A stretch of 35,168 bases of DNA from a virus: IMG/VR virus record IMGVR_UViG_3300032132_000024, positions 1 to 35,168 of that record, one strand, 5' to 3'. Every line of letters starts with the position of its first letter. Position 1 is the stretch's first letter. The notes beneath the pieces are model-generated. The model had not been told where the DNA came from, did not search any database, and worked only from the letters and a program-made list of their open reading frames with translations. A program made the position numbers and the translations under genes. Below, piece by piece: positions 1-35,168 of the stretch.

Positions 1-127
1 CTCCGGTGTCGCAGATTGAGGGTTCAGCCCTGCTACATACTGCGATGTCGGGTGACTTAGCATCAGCCGAGAAGGCGCTTGCTACGGTCGAGGCTGGACT
101 GTCCGACGGTTCCGTTGATCTCACAAA
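1..127. repeat. Terminal direct repeat (assembly circle closure), left copy
   Basis: The first 127 bases are identical to the last 127 (35042-35168). The scaffold-protein reading frame continues across the join without interruption. An exact overlap of 127 is typical of a k-mer assembly of a circular or circularly permuted molecule, so this is probably one locus counted twice rather than a physical terminal repeat. The unique genome length would be 35,041 bp. Confidence 0.95.
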
Positions 128-12543: not shown

Positions 12544-12776
12544 GATGGCGCGTATTTCTCACAAGCCAGCGTGACCAGCTTGCGCCTGTGATCCGTGTCG
12601 AGCATAGCCCACAGAGCACCAAGGCCGCTGTCCATCAGGACGTTCAACTTCTCGACCCGGTAAGCGTCGGCTATGTCGTCGCCATAGACCGCGCTTATTA
12701 CCTCGTCCGCCCGCTTGTTGGACACGTACAGGAACACGTACCCGACGGCCTTGCAATGTTCGTCGATGTTGCTCAT
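12540..12776 (-). CDS. Small early protein, function unknown
   Basis: The protein has 78 residues. It starts at the GAACATG of an A/C-rich leader (minus strand, about 12777-12812) like those of other early genes. It is acidic and helical, with V-F-L-Y-V-S-N-K-R-A-D-E-V-I near the start and A-M-L-D-T-D-H-R-R-K-L near the end. It lies in a three-gene leftward operon under the 13.06-kb promoter. Function unknown. Confidence 0.7.
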   Translation of the reverse strand: MSNIDEHCKAVGYVFLYVSNKRADEVISAVYGDDIADAYRVEKLNVLMDSGLGALWAMLDTDHRRKLVTLACEKYAPS

Positions 12777-12780
12777 GTTC

Positions 12781-12978
12781 TTAGCTCCGTTGTTCGTGTT
12801 GTTGTTCTTTTATTTTGTCCTCAAGAATGGCGAGTGCGAGATATGCCGACCGCCCGACCCGTGAGTGCGTTGCGATGTAGCGCTTATGTTCGAGGAGGTC
12901 ATGGCGCAAAACTTCGATGTCGTCGCATATCGCCGACCGATCCGCCTGACTAAGGGTATTCCATTCAAGTCTCGTCAT
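12781..12978 (-). CDS. Small early protein, function unknown
   Basis: The protein has 65 residues from ATG 12978, which has AGGGA 4-5 nt upstream. The open frame extends further to an Asn-rich stretch, but that part coincides with the predicted 5' leader of the transcript, so I exclude it. The product is a charged helical protein (L-R-H-D-L-L-E-H-K-R-Y, then A-I-L-E-D-K-I-K-E). Its last codons are overlaid by the A/C-rich leader of the next gene. Confidence 0.6.
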   Translation of the reverse strand: MTRLEWNTLSQADRSAICDDIEVLRHDLLEHKRYIATHSRVGRSAYLALAILEDKIKEQQHEQRS

Positions 12979-13009
12979 GGAGTCCCTGATCTCTAGCGGC
13001 GTGCGGTTC

Positions 13010-13064
13010 GTGTTGTTGTTCGTTGTCATGGTGATAGAATGCGCCCATTCCCCAAAAACGGCAA
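13010..13064 (-). promoter_or_regulatory. Leftward sigma70-like promoter with A/C-rich leader
   Basis: On the minus strand, -35 TTGCCG (13064-13059) and -10 CATTCT (13041-13036) are separated by exactly 17 bp. The predicted start, about 13029, falls on the ATG of the A/C-rich leader. The bases before the -35 read AAAATAGTTC, close to the matching region of the 26.8-kb and 28.5-kb promoters (AAATAGTTG). It would drive 12978, 12776 and 12543. Confidence 0.6.
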
Positions 13065-14790: not shown

Positions 14791-15032
14791 TAGACGTTCC
14801 TCCAGTCGGCGGTGTCGGTGTAGTAATAGATAGAGCCATTGCGGTGCTTGTATTTCGCGGAAATCGTTCGCTCGCTCCCGGCGTACTGCCGACCCTCCCG
14901 CAGCATGTGACGCGCTTCGTCCTCGTCACGCGCTCCGCGTATGTGCTTGTGCGGCGGCGACGTGTTGGAGGCACGGGGCAACCGCTTGCGCGATGCCTCC
15001 GCCGCCTCCCGCATTCTGGCGTCGTCGGTCAT
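14790..15032 (-). CDS. Small early protein, function unknown
   Basis: The protein has 80 residues. ATG 15032 overlaps the ERF stop as TAATG. It is very hydrophilic and basic, rich in Arg, Glu and Ala, with a P-P-H-K-H motif and a C-terminal aromatic run (S-I-Y-Y-Y-T-D-T-A-D-W). The same DNA is open further upstream in this frame, but that part lies antiparallel inside the ERF codons and is rejected. Confidence 0.6.
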   Translation of the reverse strand: MTDDARMREAAEASRKRLPRASNTSPPHKHIRGARDEDEARHMLREGRQYAGSERTISAKYKHRNGSIYYYTDTADWRNV

Positions 15033-15727
15033 TATTCGGCCCCGCCTTCCGTGGCGTTGTCGCCTACGTTTTCGCTCCATGCTTTCCAGCCCCGGATGTG
15101 CTGGCAGATGTGCTCGAACGTCTCGAACGGAATCTCTGCCGACGACTTGCACCCGGCCTCCGCCTCGATGATGCACTTGGCAATCTCGTTCGGACACGCC
15201 GCCTCTTTTGCAACCCCGGCTAAGTGCTTGCGCATGTCCGCCGTTATCTTCGGTACACCGTCGTCCTTGACGGGTTCCGCCACGGGAGCCGCAACGGGTT
15301 CCGGGCTGTCCTTGTCGGCGTCGTGCAGATCGCTGACAGGTATACATAGCGTCTCGAAGATCGCGTACTTGTAGGCCGCGCTCATGGCCTTATTCGTAGC
15401 CTTGTCGCCGCTGTCCATGCCCTCTCCCTCCGTAGTGCATGACACGCTCGACCCGTCCGCAGCCGCGAACGTATGCCGCACGCGCAGCCGCGTGCAGAAC
15501 AGGACGCCGCCGTTCCGTGTGGCGCGTTCCGTGGTGCTGCTCTCGATAACGTCGGGCAACACGAGAACGCCCTCGTCCCGGAACGCCGGGCCGCACGCAT
15601 TGTAAACCGCGTCGATGCCACGGAAGTTATAACGCTGCGCATCGTTGCGCCCGTCCTTGCCGATGGCCCCGACCTTGCTCTGCACGGCTACCAGTTTGCC
15701 GTATATTTCCCCTGCTTCGTTACTCAT
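15032..15727 (-). CDS. erf: ERF-family single-strand annealing recombinase
   Basis: The protein has 231 residues from ATG 15727, where AGGAGGTC lies 6 nt upstream. The N-terminal 150 residues match the ERF family. Y-G-K-L-V-A-V-Q-S is followed by Y-N-F-R-G-I-D-A-V-Y-N (about 33-43). R-L-R-V-R-H-T-F comes next, then G-E-G-M-D-S-G-D-K-A-T-N-K-A-M-S-A-A-Y-K (about 101-120), the most diagnostic stretch. ERF proteins anneal complementary single strands in phage recombination and genome circularisation. The linker is Pro/Ala-rich and the C-terminus is a separate small domain that may bind a partner. Confidence 0.9.
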   Translation of the reverse strand: MSNEAGEIYGKLVAVQSKVGAIGKDGRNDAQRYNFRGIDAVYNACGPAFRDEGVLVLPDVIESSTTERATRNGGVLFCTRLRVRHTFAAADGSSVSCTTEGEGMDSGDKATNKAMSAAYKYAIFETLCIPVSDLHDADKDSPEPVAAPVAEPVKDDGVPKITADMRKHLAGVAKEAACPNEIAKCIIEAEAGCKSSAEIPFETFEHICQHIRGWKAWSENVGDNATEGGAE

Positions 15728-15752
15728 ATCTTGACCTCCTATTTTCTGTATT

Positions 15753-15926
15753 TTAGCTTCCGAAGATTCGGAACGCAAGCGCTAATGTGAGCAGCAGATT
15801 CAGCGCCAGACTACACAGGGCGAACGCGCCCCACTTCTGCATCTGGTTGTCTGCCGCAATGTAGCGCTCGTAATTGTGCGCGGCTGCTTCTTGCCATTGC
15901 GTCTCTAGTGTTTTTCTAACGATCAT
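15753..15926 (-). CDS. Mini membrane protein with C-terminal anchor
   Basis: The protein has 57 residues from ATG 15926, preceded by AAAGGAACAC. A charged, helical N-terminal half (L-E-T-Q-W-Q-E-A-A-A-H-N-Y-E-R-Y) is followed by one hydrophobic segment at about 33-53. It lies 25 nt upstream of erf. Function unknown. Confidence 0.55.
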   Translation of the reverse strand: MIVRKTLETQWQEAAAHNYERYIAADNQMQKWGAFALCSLALNLLLTLALAFRIFGS

Positions 15927-16219: not shown

Positions 16220-16411
16220 TTACTTTCCACCGTTTCCCCCTGTCCTGTTACCGATTCCCCAAGGTATCGAATCCGACCAACGCGCATTAGCCCCTGCGCG
16301 ATATGCCGCCAGCCGCTCCTCGCTCCATGTCTTGCCCTTGTCGCCGCCGTTGTACCCGGAAGCCCATGCCTTGCCGTATACGCTGTTTTTTCCGTGTTGG
16401 TTGTTCGTCAT
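16220..16411 (-). CDS. Small early protein, function unknown
   Basis: The protein has 63 residues. The start lies in an AAGGAACTAAGAACATG translation signal shared with other early genes. It is Gly/Asn/Lys-rich and basic, with aromatic residues (Y-G-K-A-W-A-S-G-Y-N, then W-S-E-E-R-L-A-A-Y-R-A-G), which suggests a small nucleic-acid-binding protein. This is composition-based only. Confidence 0.6.
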   Translation of the reverse strand: MTNNQHGKNSVYGKAWASGYNGGDKGKTWSEERLAAYRAGANARWSDSIPWGIGNRTGGNGGK

Positions 16412-16415
16412 GTTC

Positions 16416-16613
16416 TTAGTTCCTTTCCTTTTTCTTGAGATGTTCCCGTGTCTCTTCCGCTGCCTGCTTCGGGGTCTTGGAGCCATCCCGCACGGCGTTC
16501 ATTAACTCCTCCAACTTAGGGTCGAGGGGCAACGGCGTCCGATTCGCTGCCCTTCGCTGCCGCATCTTCAAGAGCTGCCCGTCTGTCATTCCCATTTTGT
16601 TTGGATTAGCCAT
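16416..16613 (-). CDS. First gene of the leftward early operon, function unknown
   Basis: The protein has 65 residues from ATG 16613. The in-frame upstream part (to 16655) is the Asn-rich A/C leader. The predicted transcription start lies at about 16655, so I place the start at the GAACATG. The protein is basic and helical (Q-L-L-K-M-R-Q-R-R-A-A-N-R, then A-A-E-E-T-R-E-H-L-K-K-K). As the first gene under the 16.68-kb promoter, it is probably made early. Confidence 0.65.
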   Translation of the reverse strand: MANPNKMGMTDGQLLKMRQRRAANRTPLPLDPKLEELMNAVRDGSKTPKQAAEETREHLKKKERN

Positions 16614-16690
16614 GTTCTTTGTTCCTTCGTGGTTCGTGTTGTTCGTTGCGTTCACGCCATATTACATAAGCACTAGCCGTGCCAACCCGG
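16614..16690 (-). promoter_or_regulatory. Leftward early promoter, sigma54-like element plus A/C-rich leader
   Basis: On the minus strand TTGGCACG (16685-16678), GCTA and GTGCT follow each other, with GG and GC 10 bp apart, as in sigma54 promoters (TGGCAC-N5-TTGC). The predicted start is about 16658. A 24-nt stretch recurs with one mismatch at 22147-22170. A TAATAT at 16664-16659 leaves a sigma70 reading open, although the spacer would be only 15. The transcript leader up to 16614 is A/C-rich and carries GAAGGAAC and AGAACATG. It drives 16613 and probably the whole block to 13153. Confidence 0.55.
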
Positions 16691-16706
16691 CAACAATCAA
16701 AAGATA

Positions 16707-16735
16707 TTTTATTTCGTGCGTATTCTCTAGCAAAC
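16707..16735. repeat. T-rich conserved element near early promoters (copy 1)
   Basis: A stretch ending in CGTATTCTCTAG recurs as CGTATTCTCTAG at 26761-26772 and, in diverged form, at 28411-28436. All copies include T-T-T-A-T-T-T-[CT]-G. Here it lies between the divergent leftward early genes and the rightward fibre genes. It may be a regulator site or an upstream activating element. Confidence 0.5.
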
Positions 16736-22150: not shown

Positions 22151-22221
22151 TTGGCATGGCTAGTGCTTATACAAGCTGTCGATGAAGGAAACGAACAACA
22201 ACACGAACCACGGAGAAAAGA
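22151..22221 (+). promoter_or_regulatory. Rightward early promoter, sigma54-like, with A/C-rich leader
   Basis: TTGGCATG, GCTA, GTGCT with GG (22153-22154) and GC (22165-22166) 10 bp apart repeats the 16.68-kb element almost exactly. The predicted start (about 22178) lies just before ATG 22182. The leader 22182-22221 is A/C-rich with repeated AAC, then GGAG and AAAAGAACATG. A sigma70 alternative fits less well because TATACA has no -35 at the right distance. Confidence 0.55.
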
Positions 22222-28876: not shown

Positions 28877-28895
28877 ACCGAAAGGAACACAGAAC

Positions 28896-29114
28896 ATGAC
28901 GAACGAACACCAATGTTGCGAGAGTGTTAGAGAGAGCGGACAATGGCCCCGATACCACCAATGCAAACGCAAGGCGGTCAAGGAGGGATACTGCAAGCAG
29001 CATCACCCCGATGCTGTTGAGGCGAGGCGGTACAAGGCCGTCGCGCGATATGAGGAAAGGCGGTTGAGAATGCTCCTACTAGACAAAGCATTTGCCGACA
29101 AGTACTACGAATAA
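28896..29114 (+). CDS. Small Cys/His zinc-finger-like protein (paralogue B)
   Basis: The protein has 72 residues from ATG 28896, preceded by AAAGGAACACAGAACATG-type spacing. The core C-C-E-S-V-R-E-S-G, then R-Y-H-Q-C-K-R and G-Y-C-K-Q-H-H-P-D-A-V is shared with 22222, giving a conserved C and H set suited to zinc. The C-terminus is a basic, Arg/Leu-rich helix. Two copies at different early promoters suggest duplication of the promoter-gene unit. Confidence 0.7.
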   Translation: MTNEHQCCESVRESGQWPRYHQCKRKAVKEGYCKQHHPDAVEARRYKAVARYEERRLRMLLLDKAFADKYYE

Positions 29115-29144
29115 AACAACACGAACAACGAAGGAACTAAGAAC
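29115..29144 (+). promoter_or_regulatory. A/C-rich translation leader without its own promoter
   Basis: AACAACACGAACAACG, then AAGGAACTAAGAACATG, matches the leaders after the promoters at 22.15, 26.8 and 28.5 kb. Here it sits in the middle of an operon, right after a stop, so the element works as a modular initiation signal. Confidence 0.6.
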
Positions 29145-29402
29145 ATGAGGACACTCGAAAACATGCAACTGCCGGACAGGCTCAAGCGTGGCGACCGCTT
29201 AACGTGGGACGGTGGCCCGGTGTGTACCGTGGTTAGCATCCACAATCGACGCCGCGACGAATACGGCCAGCCATACTACACGCTGCATTGTGGGCGATGG
29301 GTTGACGCCGCCGGATGGGCACGACCCGCGCAGGACTCCAAGCAGCGCACACGCGACCAGCTCCAAGAGCAGGGCTACACGTTCGTAGGGGGTGCGGAAT
29401 GA
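29145..29402 (+). CDS. Small protein, function unknown
   Basis: The protein has 85 residues with the leader just described upstream. It is beta-rich (G-D-R-L-T-W-D-G-G-P-V-C-T-V-V-S-I-H, then Q-P-Y-Y-T-L-H-C-G-R-W-V-D) and looks like a small SH3/barrel-like domain. Function unknown. Confidence 0.65.
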   Translation: MRTLENMQLPDRLKRGDRLTWDGGPVCTVVSIHNRRRDEYGQPYYTLHCGRWVDAAGWARPAQDSKQRTRDQLQEQGYTFVGGAE

Positions 29403-31698: not shown

Positions 31699-31936
31699 CC
31701 CACACACAGACGAGCCAGACGTTCTCGATTGCCCCAAATGCAAGCAGCCCGGCGAGAGCATGGGGAGCGCGTTTGAGCCGGACACGCAGACTTACACATG
31801 CGCGGCCCGGTGTTTGCGGTGCGAGATCATATGGACGGACACGCACGACGACGACGGCCACGTGGAGACATCGTGGAAACCGGACAGAGACATAACACAC
31901 AACTCCCGTTTGGAGTTTGGAGGAGGTTGGGAGTAA
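31691..31936 (+). CDS. Small zinc-finger-like protein
   Basis: The protein has 81 residues. C-P-K-C (about 14-17) and C-L-R-C (about 41-44) with acidic segments between suggest a zinc ribbon. It overlaps the previous gene by 8 nt and the next by 1 nt (TAATG). The C-terminus is acidic. Function unknown. Confidence 0.6.
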   Translation: MDNPHTDEPDVLDCPKCKQPGESMGSAFEPDTQTYTCAARCLRCEIIWTDTHDDDGHVETSWKPDRDITHNSRLEFGGGWE

Positions 31937-32352
31937 TGCTCGACGGCTCTCCATTCGCACCGATACCGGGGTTCCGGCGTCCCGACCTGTTCGCGGAGGG
32001 GTGCGACGATTTCGTTACAGACGACTCCGTGGCGTTCCTCGATAAGTACCCCGTGTCACCGGGACATCTGCTGGTTGTGCCGCGCCGGGTTGTTGCGTCC
32101 GTGTATGATCTGCCAGCGTGCGAGTATAATGACCTGTGGAGGCTCGTCAGGCGGTGTAGGACGGCGTTTAACGAGGGAAGGCTAGGCCTAGTACCTGACG
32201 GGTACAACATCGGCTTAAACGACGGCACAGCGGCGGGACAGACAATCGACCACGCGCATATTCACATCATCCCGCGATACAGGGGCGACGTGGAGGACGC
32301 ACGCGGCGGTATCCGATGGGTGAAGCCGGGCAAGGCTAATTACTGGGGGTGA
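31936..32352 (+). CDS. HIT-family hydrolase
   Basis: The protein has 138 residues; AGGAGG lies 9 nt before ATG 31936. The histidine-triad signature H-A-H-I-H-I-I-P (106-113), preceded by N-I-G-L-N-D-G-T-A-A-G-Q-T, is the active site of nucleotidyl hydrolases that cleave phosphoramidate or AMP/dinucleotide bonds. F-L-D-K-Y-P-V-S-P-G-H-L-L-V-V-P at about 34-49 matches the family's N-terminal half. In a phage it may act in nucleotide metabolism or on modified DNA; the substrate is unknown. Confidence 0.9.
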   Translation: MLDGSPFAPIPGFRRPDLFAEGCDDFVTDDSVAFLDKYPVSPGHLLVVPRRVVASVYDLPACEYNDLWRLVRRCRTAFNEGRLGLVPDGYNIGLNDGTAAGQTIDHAHIHIIPRYRGDVEDARGGIRWVKPGKANYWG

Positions 32353-32447: not shown

Positions 32448-32612
32448 CGCGCCGATTTGATCGTTTCATTTTCGGAAATTCGCAGGGCCGAGAGGGGGTA
32501 CGGTTTTGACCCGAAAAAAAACCACTTTGGAAAATAAACGGACTTGATAATGCATCGAATCTGCACGTTTGCCCGCTGTTCATAGGGCTAGATCTACGCG
32601 CCGAAAAATGAG

Positions 32613-32668
32613 CTTAAGCGGTACTTAAGTTGCACTTAAGTTCAACCAACCAGAACCAGAACCAGAAC
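32613..32668. repeat. Second iteron array, non-coding, upstream of the portal promoter
   Basis: Three tandem 11-bp repeats (32613-32623, 32624-32634, 32635-32645), then CCAAC, then CAGAAC three times (32651-32668). This is the same architecture as at 23345-23406 inside the initiator gene (CATAAC there). One frame even reads L-S-S-T-N-Q-N-Q-N-Q-N-K, like the initiator linker, but a stop lies just upstream, so it is not coding. The surrounding 367 bp hold no gene. It may be a second origin or a switch site. Confidence 0.6.
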
Positions 32669-32748
32669 AAGACTAGTAGAGTGTAAATATACAGAGTGTG
32701 ATCGAACGCTGTTCGTCGCCCCCTGTGACCGTGTTCCATGGCGTGCGT

Positions 32749-32814
32749 TTGTACGGCTGCGCGTAGTCGGCTATCATTCCCCCGAATGCACACAACACCG
32801 GGAGAAGGATAATC
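32749..32814 (+). promoter_or_regulatory. Promoter for the late head/tail operon
   Basis: -35 TTGTAC (32749-32754) and -10 TATCAT (32772-32777) are 17 bp apart; the predicted start is about 32784. GGGAGAAGG follows as ribosome site before ATG 32815. The iteron-like array is 80 bp upstream of the -35. An inverted GGTTTT/AAAACC pair lies further up (near 32501-32522). Confidence 0.55.
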
Positions 32815-34380
32815 ATGGCTGGCGACGACTACTGGGGGCGGGGGAACGTGATCGGCAATATGCCGCTCGATCTTACTGGCAAGATGGATTCCACATCCAC
32901 GCCGGAAGATATCATCCTCAAGCAGATGCACCCCGTACTGGCTGCACGCGGCCCACAGATCGCAATTAACCACCTCGCCTATGGAGGCGGTCGTGCGTAC
33001 ATCGCAGCCCGCCTGTCGCGCTTTGCTGGCGAGAGCGAGATTGAGTGGGACGGCGGCACACGCAAAGACGGTAGCAAGATCACGGGGCGGCTGGCACGTA
33101 GCCACCACGTCCCGCTGATACGCCGCATGGTAAACAAGCTCTCGCAGTACGTCTTCCAGACCCCACCGGGCCGCGACGGGATAGACCCCGACGTTGAGGA
33201 AGATATCACGCTCACGGGCCAACGGCTCGACCTGTTCATGCAGCAGCTTCTCGCGACGGTTGCGAGCAGTCAATGGGCATGGGTCGGCGTAGACACCCCG
33301 GCCACAGGCGCGGCGGAAATGACCGAAGCGGACAAGGTGACGGAGCGCATTCGCCCATTCTGGCGCATATACAATCCCGGCGACGTGATGGATTGGGAGT
33401 TCAACCGCACAGGCGGGCTAGAGTGGGTTAAGGTGCGCGGTGTAGAGACGATCTCTAACGGCCCCATAGGGTTGCGTACAACCCGCGAGACACGCACGAT
33501 ATGGAGCCGCGGTGAGGTTACGCGCTACACGGCGAACGAAGACGGCACCGAGATAGAGAGCAAGCAGACGAGCCCGGTCAGCATCCAGAGCGTGCCGTTC
33601 TTCCCGGTCGGCAACATATCGACCGACCCGTCAGAGATGGACGATTTAGAGGGCATGAATGCCACCGTGATGGATTTAGAAAGCGCGAACAGAGAGAACT
33701 ATTTTAAAGGCGTATACCCGCAGAAGTATCTGCCCGCGTCCGTACTGGAACACGCGAAAGAAGCATACAGCATGGAGGGGCCGGAAGCGCTGTCGATGGT
33801 CATGGGCCTTGCGTATCCCATCCTGCTTGAGCCGGGCGACCCGACGCCGGGTATCATCATGCCGGACGCATCGAGCACGGCAACGATCCGCACCGAGATC
33901 AACGAGCTAAAGGACGCGATGAAAGAGTGTTTCGGGATGATGCTCCAGAAGCAGACGCGGCAAGCTGAATCCGCCGAGGCTAAGGCGTGGGATCATCTCG
34001 ACGTGGAAGCGGTCATGCGCGTGAACGCCGATATGCTGGCAGACGCCGAGCGCAAGGCTGTCGCGCTATCGAGCGAGTGGGACGCATCCTTCAAAACATG
34101 GACGCCGGAATACAGCGTCGATTTCGACGTGGGCGATTTCAAGGGCGACATCGAGGCGATTGTCGCAGCGATGAACGCGACCAGCCACCCCGAAAGCGTG
34201 AAGCGCATGTTCGAGCGCAAGCTTGTCGAGCGCGTTGACCGTATCGGTTCCCGTGCCACAGTTGAAGAAATGGCCGAAATGCGCGAAGATATAGCGAGTC
34301 ACGAATCCGACCCGGTGATGATCGACATTGACGCGGCCACACAGGGCGACGAGGACGAGGGCGAAGAAGACGAGGGGTAA
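32815..34380 (+). CDS. Portal protein
   Basis: The protein has 521 residues. Size, helical C-terminus, acidic tail (D-E-D-E-G-E-E-D-E-G) and gene order (first of the structural operon, followed by scaffold and coat) fit a portal. Segments such as R-R-M-V-N-K-L-S-Q-Y-V-F, W-R-I-Y-N-P-G-D-V and T-A-T-I-R-T-E-I-N-E-L-K-D-A-M-K-E resemble DUF4055-like portals. Portal dodecamers form the DNA channel, take the terminase and later bind the connectors. Confidence is high for portal, lower for the family. Confidence 0.85.
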   Translation: MAGDDYWGRGNVIGNMPLDLTGKMDSTSTPEDIILKQMHPVLAARGPQIAINHLAYGGGRAYIAARLSRFAGESEIEWDGGTRKDGSKITGRLARSHHVPLIRRMVNKLSQYVFQTPPGRDGIDPDVEEDITLTGQRLDLFMQQLLATVASSQWAWVGVDTPATGAAEMTEADKVTERIRPFWRIYNPGDVMDWEFNRTGGLEWVKVRGVETISNGPIGLRTTRETRTIWSRGEVTRYTANEDGTEIESKQTSPVSIQSVPFFPVGNISTDPSEMDDLEGMNATVMDLESANRENYFKGVYPQKYLPASVLEHAKEAYSMEGPEALSMVMGLAYPILLEPGDPTPGIIMPDASSTATIRTEINELKDAMKECFGMMLQKQTRQAESAEAKAWDHLDVEAVMRVNADMLADAERKAVALSSEWDASFKTWTPEYSVDFDVGDFKGDIEAIVAAMNATSHPESVKRMFERKLVERVDRIGSRATVEEMAEMREDIASHESDPVMIDIDAATQGDEDEGEEDEG

Positions 34381-34467: not shown

Positions 34468-35168
34468 ATGACATACGAAGACGCACAAAAGATATTGCTA
34501 GATGGCGGCGACGTTACGGACGAAGTTCGTAGCGCGTTGGGATCATTTGATCCGCAAGCGGCTATCGCGGCAGAACTGGAAAAGCAAAAGAACTCATTAG
34601 CGGCGGCGGCACGCAAGGACGCGGAAAGCAAGGCGGAAGCATTGCGGGCGCAACTTGACGAGGCACAGGCCAAGGCTGACGAGAGCGAAAGCAAGACCGG
34701 GACAGCAGCGGAGCAGCACGCGAAACAGATGAAGATTCTCGCTGACAAGATCGACGCAATGCAGGCAGAGTCCGCCGCCGACAAGGCGCAGGCGACTAAG
34801 CTCCTGCGAGATGCCGCGGTGTCAAAGGTGATCGGCTCGCAACGATTCAACCAGAAGATCGTGACGGACGACTACGCTCGACTGCTGGCGGATAGTGCAT
34901 TGGGTGGACTCGACACGGAGCAGATAAGCGACCCGGCCATTACTGGCCCGTTGTTTGACGCTCTGCGTGCGGAGAAGCCAGACCTGTTCATGGTCGATAC
35001 ACCATCTGGCGCGGGCGGCGTGGAAGGCACGGGCGGAACGGCTCCGGTGTCGCAGATTGAGGGTTCAGCCCTGCTACATACTGCGATGTCGGGTGACTTA
35101 GCATCAGCCGAGAAGGCGCTTGCTACGGTCGAGGCTGGACTGTCCGACGGTTCCGTTGATCTCACAAA
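34468..35168 (+). CDS. Capsid scaffolding protein, N-terminal part (continues at position 1)
   Basis: The whole protein has 234 residues. It begins M-T-Y-E-D-A-Q-K-I-L; the middle is an alanine/glutamate/lysine-rich coiled coil (L-R-A-Q-L-D-E-A-Q-A-K-A, then A-K-Q-M-K-I-L-A-D-K-I-D-A-M-Q-A). A globular C-terminal part ends at 131 on the far side of the join. Placement between portal and coat, coiled-coil core and lack of a protease motif fit an internal scaffold. GAGGGAGC lies 8 nt before the ATG. Confidence 0.8.
   Translation, partial: MTYEDAQKILLDGGDVTDEVRSALGSFDPQAAIAAELEKQKNSLAAAARKDAESKAEALRAQLDEAQAKADESESKTGTAAEQHAKQMKILADKIDAMQAESAADKAQATKLLRDAAVSKVIGSQRFNQKIVTDDYARLLADSALGGLDTEQISDPAITGPLFDALRAEKPDLFMVDTPSGAGGVEGTGGTAPVSQIEGSALLHTAMSGDLASAEKALATVEAGLSDGSVDLT
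35042..35168. repeat. Terminal direct repeat (assembly circle closure), right copy
   Basis: Identical to 1-127. See that entry; most likely the same locus read twice at the ends of a circular contig. Confidence 0.95.

Follow-up and report, generated by a model that had tools for sequence, protein, structure and literature searches.

We analyzed a window of 35,168 nucleotides that spans the whole of IMG/VR record IMGVR_UViG_3300032132_000024, which is classed as a virus and is complete and circular. Its ends (window positions 1-127 and 35042-35168) carry the same 127 bases, indicating a circular assembly with a unit genome of 35,041 bp. Two related repeat arrays were found, one inside the gene for a replication initiator and a second in non-coding DNA (Table 1). 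The non-coding array sits between early-type genes and the portal gene, in a gap of approximately 460 bp that opens at position 32352, where a HIT-domain gene ends. That gene (31798-32352; PF01230, 5e-19) is unusual as phage cargo.

Table 1. Coordinates of the repeat arrays, low-stability segments, and relevant genes in the window.
Feature	Position	Strand	Details
Erf-like single-strand annealing protein (recombination-dependent replication)	15032-15778	-	phrog_155, 2e-31
Initiator gene	22972-23694	+	DUF1376 domain, disordered array-coded linker, C-terminal domain of phage replication initiators
In-gene array, three 11-bp iterons	23345-23377	+	lag-11 p ~0.001
Genome-wide minimum of stability (100 bp), at and past the in-gene array	23347-23446		nearest-neighbor energy; putative unwinding element
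In-gene array, CCAAC junction and four AACCAT hexamers	23378-23405	+	encodes STNHNHNHNH
DnaB-type helicase, adjoining the initiator gene	23694-24542	+	PF03796, 9e-22; phrog_19, 3e-38
Single-strand DNA binding protein (SSB)	27458-27829	+	phrog_4932, 1e-27
Low-stability 100 bp over the non-coding array	32603-32702		third least stable separate site, rank 0.11%; candidate unwinding element
Non-coding array, three 11-bp iterons	32613-32645	+	11-bp periodicity p ~0.001; CTTAAG at 32613, 32624, and 32635
Non-coding array, CCAAC junction and three CAGAAC hexamers	32646-32668	+	AACCAG run at 32648-32672
Portal gene, opening the head operon on the 3' side of the non-coding array	32815-34380	+	phrog_145, 9e-48

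The window also contains a dispersed leader-like repeat, AACAACACGAAC...GGA..AAGAACATG, which occurs on both strands and often runs up to an ATG. Copies lie at 22165-22354, 26748-26910, 28410-28558, 28884-29026, and 29115-29151, with inverted copies at 12763-13033 and 16395-16734, and some have a TTTATTTTGC...TAGTTGTAGACA block upstream. From its sequence, this repeat is possibly a common early promoter and ribosome-binding leader.

The non-coding array reads CTTAAGCGGTA CTTAAGTTGCA CTTAAGTTCAA CCAAC CAGAAC CAGAAC CAGAAC, in exact agreement with a preliminary description of the locus, while the in-gene array reads CCCAAGTTCAA CCTAAGCTCAA CTTAAGTTCAA CCAAC, followed by CATAAC repeats. A 34-base pattern fitting both arrays occurred twice in the window versus never in 100 shuffles, and ACTTAAGT was present three times in the genome, in each case within one of the two arrays. 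When the non-coding array was compared with the window by BLAST, the in-gene array was matched over 46 bp (85%, E 5.8e-10), and the ungapped +1/-2 score of the pair was 26, compared to 11 or less in 40 simulated 5-kb sequences. In a six-base periodicity scan of the 35-kb genome, the arrays were the only hexamer runs to score at least 10, the threshold used. Identity in the 60-bp flanks was 23% and 30%, as expected by chance, such that the similarity ends at the module edges.

These comparisons refine how the two arrays were first related to each other. The separation reported as 9.2 kb was measured at 9.27 kb from start to start. The order of elements is shared, as described and as the 46-bp match indicates, but the in-gene array has four hexamers rather than three, and the A-richness that follows the hexamers is weaker at the non-coding array. 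CTTAAG is complete in all three non-coding iterons and in only the third in-gene iteron. The T to G change throughout the hexamer was correctly noted, yet family members vary freely at the sixth base (AACCAC, AACCAT, AACCAG), and AACCAG itself is common within initiator genes.

Both arrays coincide with DNA of low duplex stability, although the rank of the non-coding array should be considered weaker evidence because intergenic DNA is often A-T rich. GC skew did not switch at either array and instead tracked gene strand. We considered a strand hairpin and rejected it, as three of the four strands folded no better than shuffled sequences (z above -1.3) and the in-gene minus strand folded only mildly better (z -2.1).

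The protein encoded around the in-gene array matched PF07120 (DUF1376) with 45.8 bits (8e-12), above the curated cut-off of 30.1, and its C-terminal part (residues 114-237) matched phrog_270 (2e-19), with a further match to phrog_9327 (6e-20). In the predicted structure, the sole internal stretch with pLDDT below 50 was residues 133-144, corresponding to the array-coded linker. In a check for a winged-helix DNA-binding fold, a Foldseek search with the predicted fold returned zero significant matches, while in a second look at structure matches the best were the N-domains of RepA-type initiators (4pql, 4pt7, and 5kbj), at a modest Z of approximately 6.

To compare initiator genes, we defined the origin module as iterons of approximately 11 bp placed directly before CAACC and a tandem hexamer, an arrangement found in both window arrays and in relatives. 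A hexamer array was present in the linker of 9 of 16 DUF1376 initiators, versus approximately one such run in every 90 kb of DNA elsewhere. The 16 initiators were gathered via protein homology or their terminase, with no DNA pattern used to select them, and loci that could be picked through the peptide pattern NHNHNHNH, which the hexamer itself matches, were left out of this frequency estimate. Linker tandem hexamers were seen in many DUF1376 initiators of viral contigs L003 and L007-L031 and of phages W01-W09. The hexamers vary (AACCAN, ATAAAG, ATACAG, CCTAAC, TCACCT), encode QP, EP, NH, NQ, TT, TD, KD, NP, or SP, and use all three reading frames. Pooled autocorrelation of the DNA 5' of the hexamers peaked at 11-12 bp (0.44 and 0.38) and again at 22-23 bp, compared to approximately 0.25 at most other lags. 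Because the array lies in different frames and a period of 11 bp is out of step with codons, selection acts on the DNA.

Searches made without reference to genes returned the same kind of locus. In a sample of approximately 80 stretches from a scan of viral contigs for four AACCAN units, 26 encoded proteins were picked by size and array position; 12 of them have DUF1376, and others match replication initiation families, including O-like initiators. The core common to both arrays, TTCAACCAACCANAACCANAAC, occurred in nine stretches among 2.9 million viral contigs. Seven of the nine were in initiator-type genes, with GTTSAACGGRC-like iterons 5' of the core and in different frames. Over approximately 29 bp, the module inside an initiator gene of another phage (L222/G043) is identical to the non-coding array. 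Since the core falls mostly in initiator genes and this stretch matches one of them, the non-coding array is, by its sequence, an origin module. Judged by these comparisons, the in-gene array represents a trait that recurs in the family of phage DUF1376 initiators and is conserved at the DNA level. The linker tandem hexamer would apparently be an origin signature without prior description; we did not find iterons with a tandem hexamer in DUF1376 initiator genes described as such in the literature searched.

The layout of a repeat array in the initiator gene and a second array in a distant non-coding segment is that of Bacillus phage SPP1, where initiator gene 38 contains oriL, and oriR is found at a distance of 12-13 kb in late-region DNA that is non-coding (PMC6316719, PMC3485210). 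SPP1 gp38 binds both origins, and at oriR it is believed to halt replication forks and set off concatemer replication (PMC6316719, PMC3485210). In both phages, an origin-type site of direct repeats and AT-rich DNA is found in the initiator gene, a similarly organized one is non-coding, and both an SSB and a single-strand annealing protein are encoded. The phages differ in array distance (9.3 kb here, compared to 12-13 kb on the SPP1 circle) and in the initiator, which here is of the DUF1376/phrog_270 type and is encoded beside a DnaB-type helicase, with a module of 11-bp iterons and hexamers. Of the two phages, SPP1 is the one with demonstrated initiator binding.

Other systems share parts of this layout. 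Phage lambda also has iterons and an asymmetric A-T rich stretch within the gene of its own initiator (ori in gene O), but its iterons are four in number and 19 bp long, its origin is single, and no second non-coding copy has been described (PMC4488673). In Lactococcus phage BK5-T, the C-terminal domain encoded by the replication initiation gene is homologous to that of the initiator studied here, and a repeat_region is annotated inside the gene, although this initiator lacks a DUF1376 domain, none of its hexamer runs reached our threshold, and a second copy was not found. Satellite phage P4 uses one initiator and two repeat-bearing sites, ori and crr, which are kilobases apart and both needed for replication, but its initiator is unrelated and crr alone is not known to be an origin.

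Based on these data, we consider it probable, with moderate confidence, that positions 32613-32668 are a second, non-coding copy of the replication-origin module that serves the phage's own initiator, comparable to oriL and oriR of SPP1. The preliminary description had already raised a second origin; the family-wide module, the low stability, and the SPP1 precedent favor an origin-like site that serves the resident initiator, while the lack of a distant pair among relatives counts against it, as do the smaller number of hexamers, the weaker A-richness behind them, and the GC skew, which does not switch at either array. Two matching modules, origin-type anatomy across the family, low duplex stability, and genes for an annealase and an SSB are its observed basis. 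We infer that the DUF1376-type initiator binds the 11-bp iterons of the non-coding array. The main origin would be the linker-coding part of the initiator gene itself, and at either site the hexamer array with the surrounding unstable DNA would be the part where strands open. By analogy, the non-coding array most likely acts as oriR does in SPP1, either as a secondary or late origin or as an initiator-loaded block to forks from the first origin. In that role it could, as in SPP1, help replication to pass from circles to concatemers driven by recombination.

The position of the array between early-type genes and the portal gene, approximately 80 bp before the sequence TTGTAC-17-TATCAT (32749-32777), would also suit a control site, at which bound initiator regulates a late promoter or obstructs transcription arriving from the early genes and so ties head expression to replication. 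The preliminary description had cited this sequence as the late promoter and had proposed that the initiator controls late transcription. The sequence is weak, with 8 of 12 consensus bases, and was absent from the list returned by our consensus scan, in which promoter-like sites in this region occurred at chance number. Consensus terminators were likewise at chance level. The claimed promoter is thus no better than chance, and the proposed control of late transcription lacks sequence support. Moreover, the strand-opening hexamers were copied together with the binding iterons, and a pure operator would not need them. Since there is no credible promoter and the retention of the hexamers is left unexplained, a transcription switch is disfavored; we regard a control site as unlikely, and consider it more likely that the array is a secondary origin or that initiator bound there acts as a barrier to forks.

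We also considered whether the non-coding array is an inert relic, left from an initiator gene or an origin of which a piece was caught by recombination and is now drifting. One frame of the array reads KLHLSSTNQNQNQNK, which resembles the linkers of other initiators, and duplication of the module does happen, as it is found twice in one initiator gene of L350 (2404-2425 and 2683-2704; G068:C1:14653 and 14932), 279 bp or 93 codons apart. The pattern in relatives is also in keeping with a relic. Among the sampled relatives, many of which are contig fragments, none had a distant second copy away from the initiator gene, and the pair may be a chance acquisition. The preliminary description held that the second-copy idea would fall if no relative kept both arrays, and this is so far what we see for a distant pair. 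Because many contigs are fragmentary and searches of the collections that used the portal, the helicase, and exact DNA patterns yielded no close relative of this phage, we consider this absence to be weak evidence. The array itself does not look decayed: its iterons match those of the resident initiator, it keeps the 11-bp spacing, and each of its three CTTAAG motifs is perfect, unlike the outcome of random decay. A decayed copy of the initiator gene in the portal-side gap was sought by profile and tblastn without finding a remnant, and there is no coding remnant of an initiator on either side, with similarity stopping at the module edges. We therefore regard a relic as improbable.

Two further observations concern repeated sequence in relatives. 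In Octadecabacter DB virus 2, a candidate second copy consisted of a 16-bp match on the other strand inside the portal gene, which we read as chance. In G001 (the L003 contig), the reverse complement of 36142-36168 is an inverted 27-bp copy (96%) of GTCGATCGAAGTCGATCG, the stretch directly behind the hexamers of the initiator gene; this copy lies approximately 1.1 kb upstream of that gene and is perhaps an operator or a second binding site.

A titration site, where the second array would sequester initiator or pair with its in-gene counterpart so that initiation is limited, in the manner of plasmid iteron coupling, is in keeping with the same iterons being present in both arrays and has a parallel in lambda, whose replication is arrested by extra origin copies on a plasmid (PMC4488673), but three sites are few for a lytic burst and the hexamers would be unneeded, leaving it the least probable of these alternatives. 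More speculatively, and in our view a long shot, the non-coding copy of the origin module could be a working device at the boundary of the replication and head genes, where loaded initiator stops or fires forks and also gates late transcription, such that concatemers and heads start together.

If the non-coding array is indeed a second origin module, this phage would join SPP1 as the second with a dual-origin layout, here with a different-looking initiator. This would suggest that the layout may have arisen more than once. In a large class of phages, origins would be readable from sequence, as iterons and a tandem hexamer inside DUF1376 initiator genes, which would make both the location of the origin and the purpose of a second one directly testable in cultured phages.
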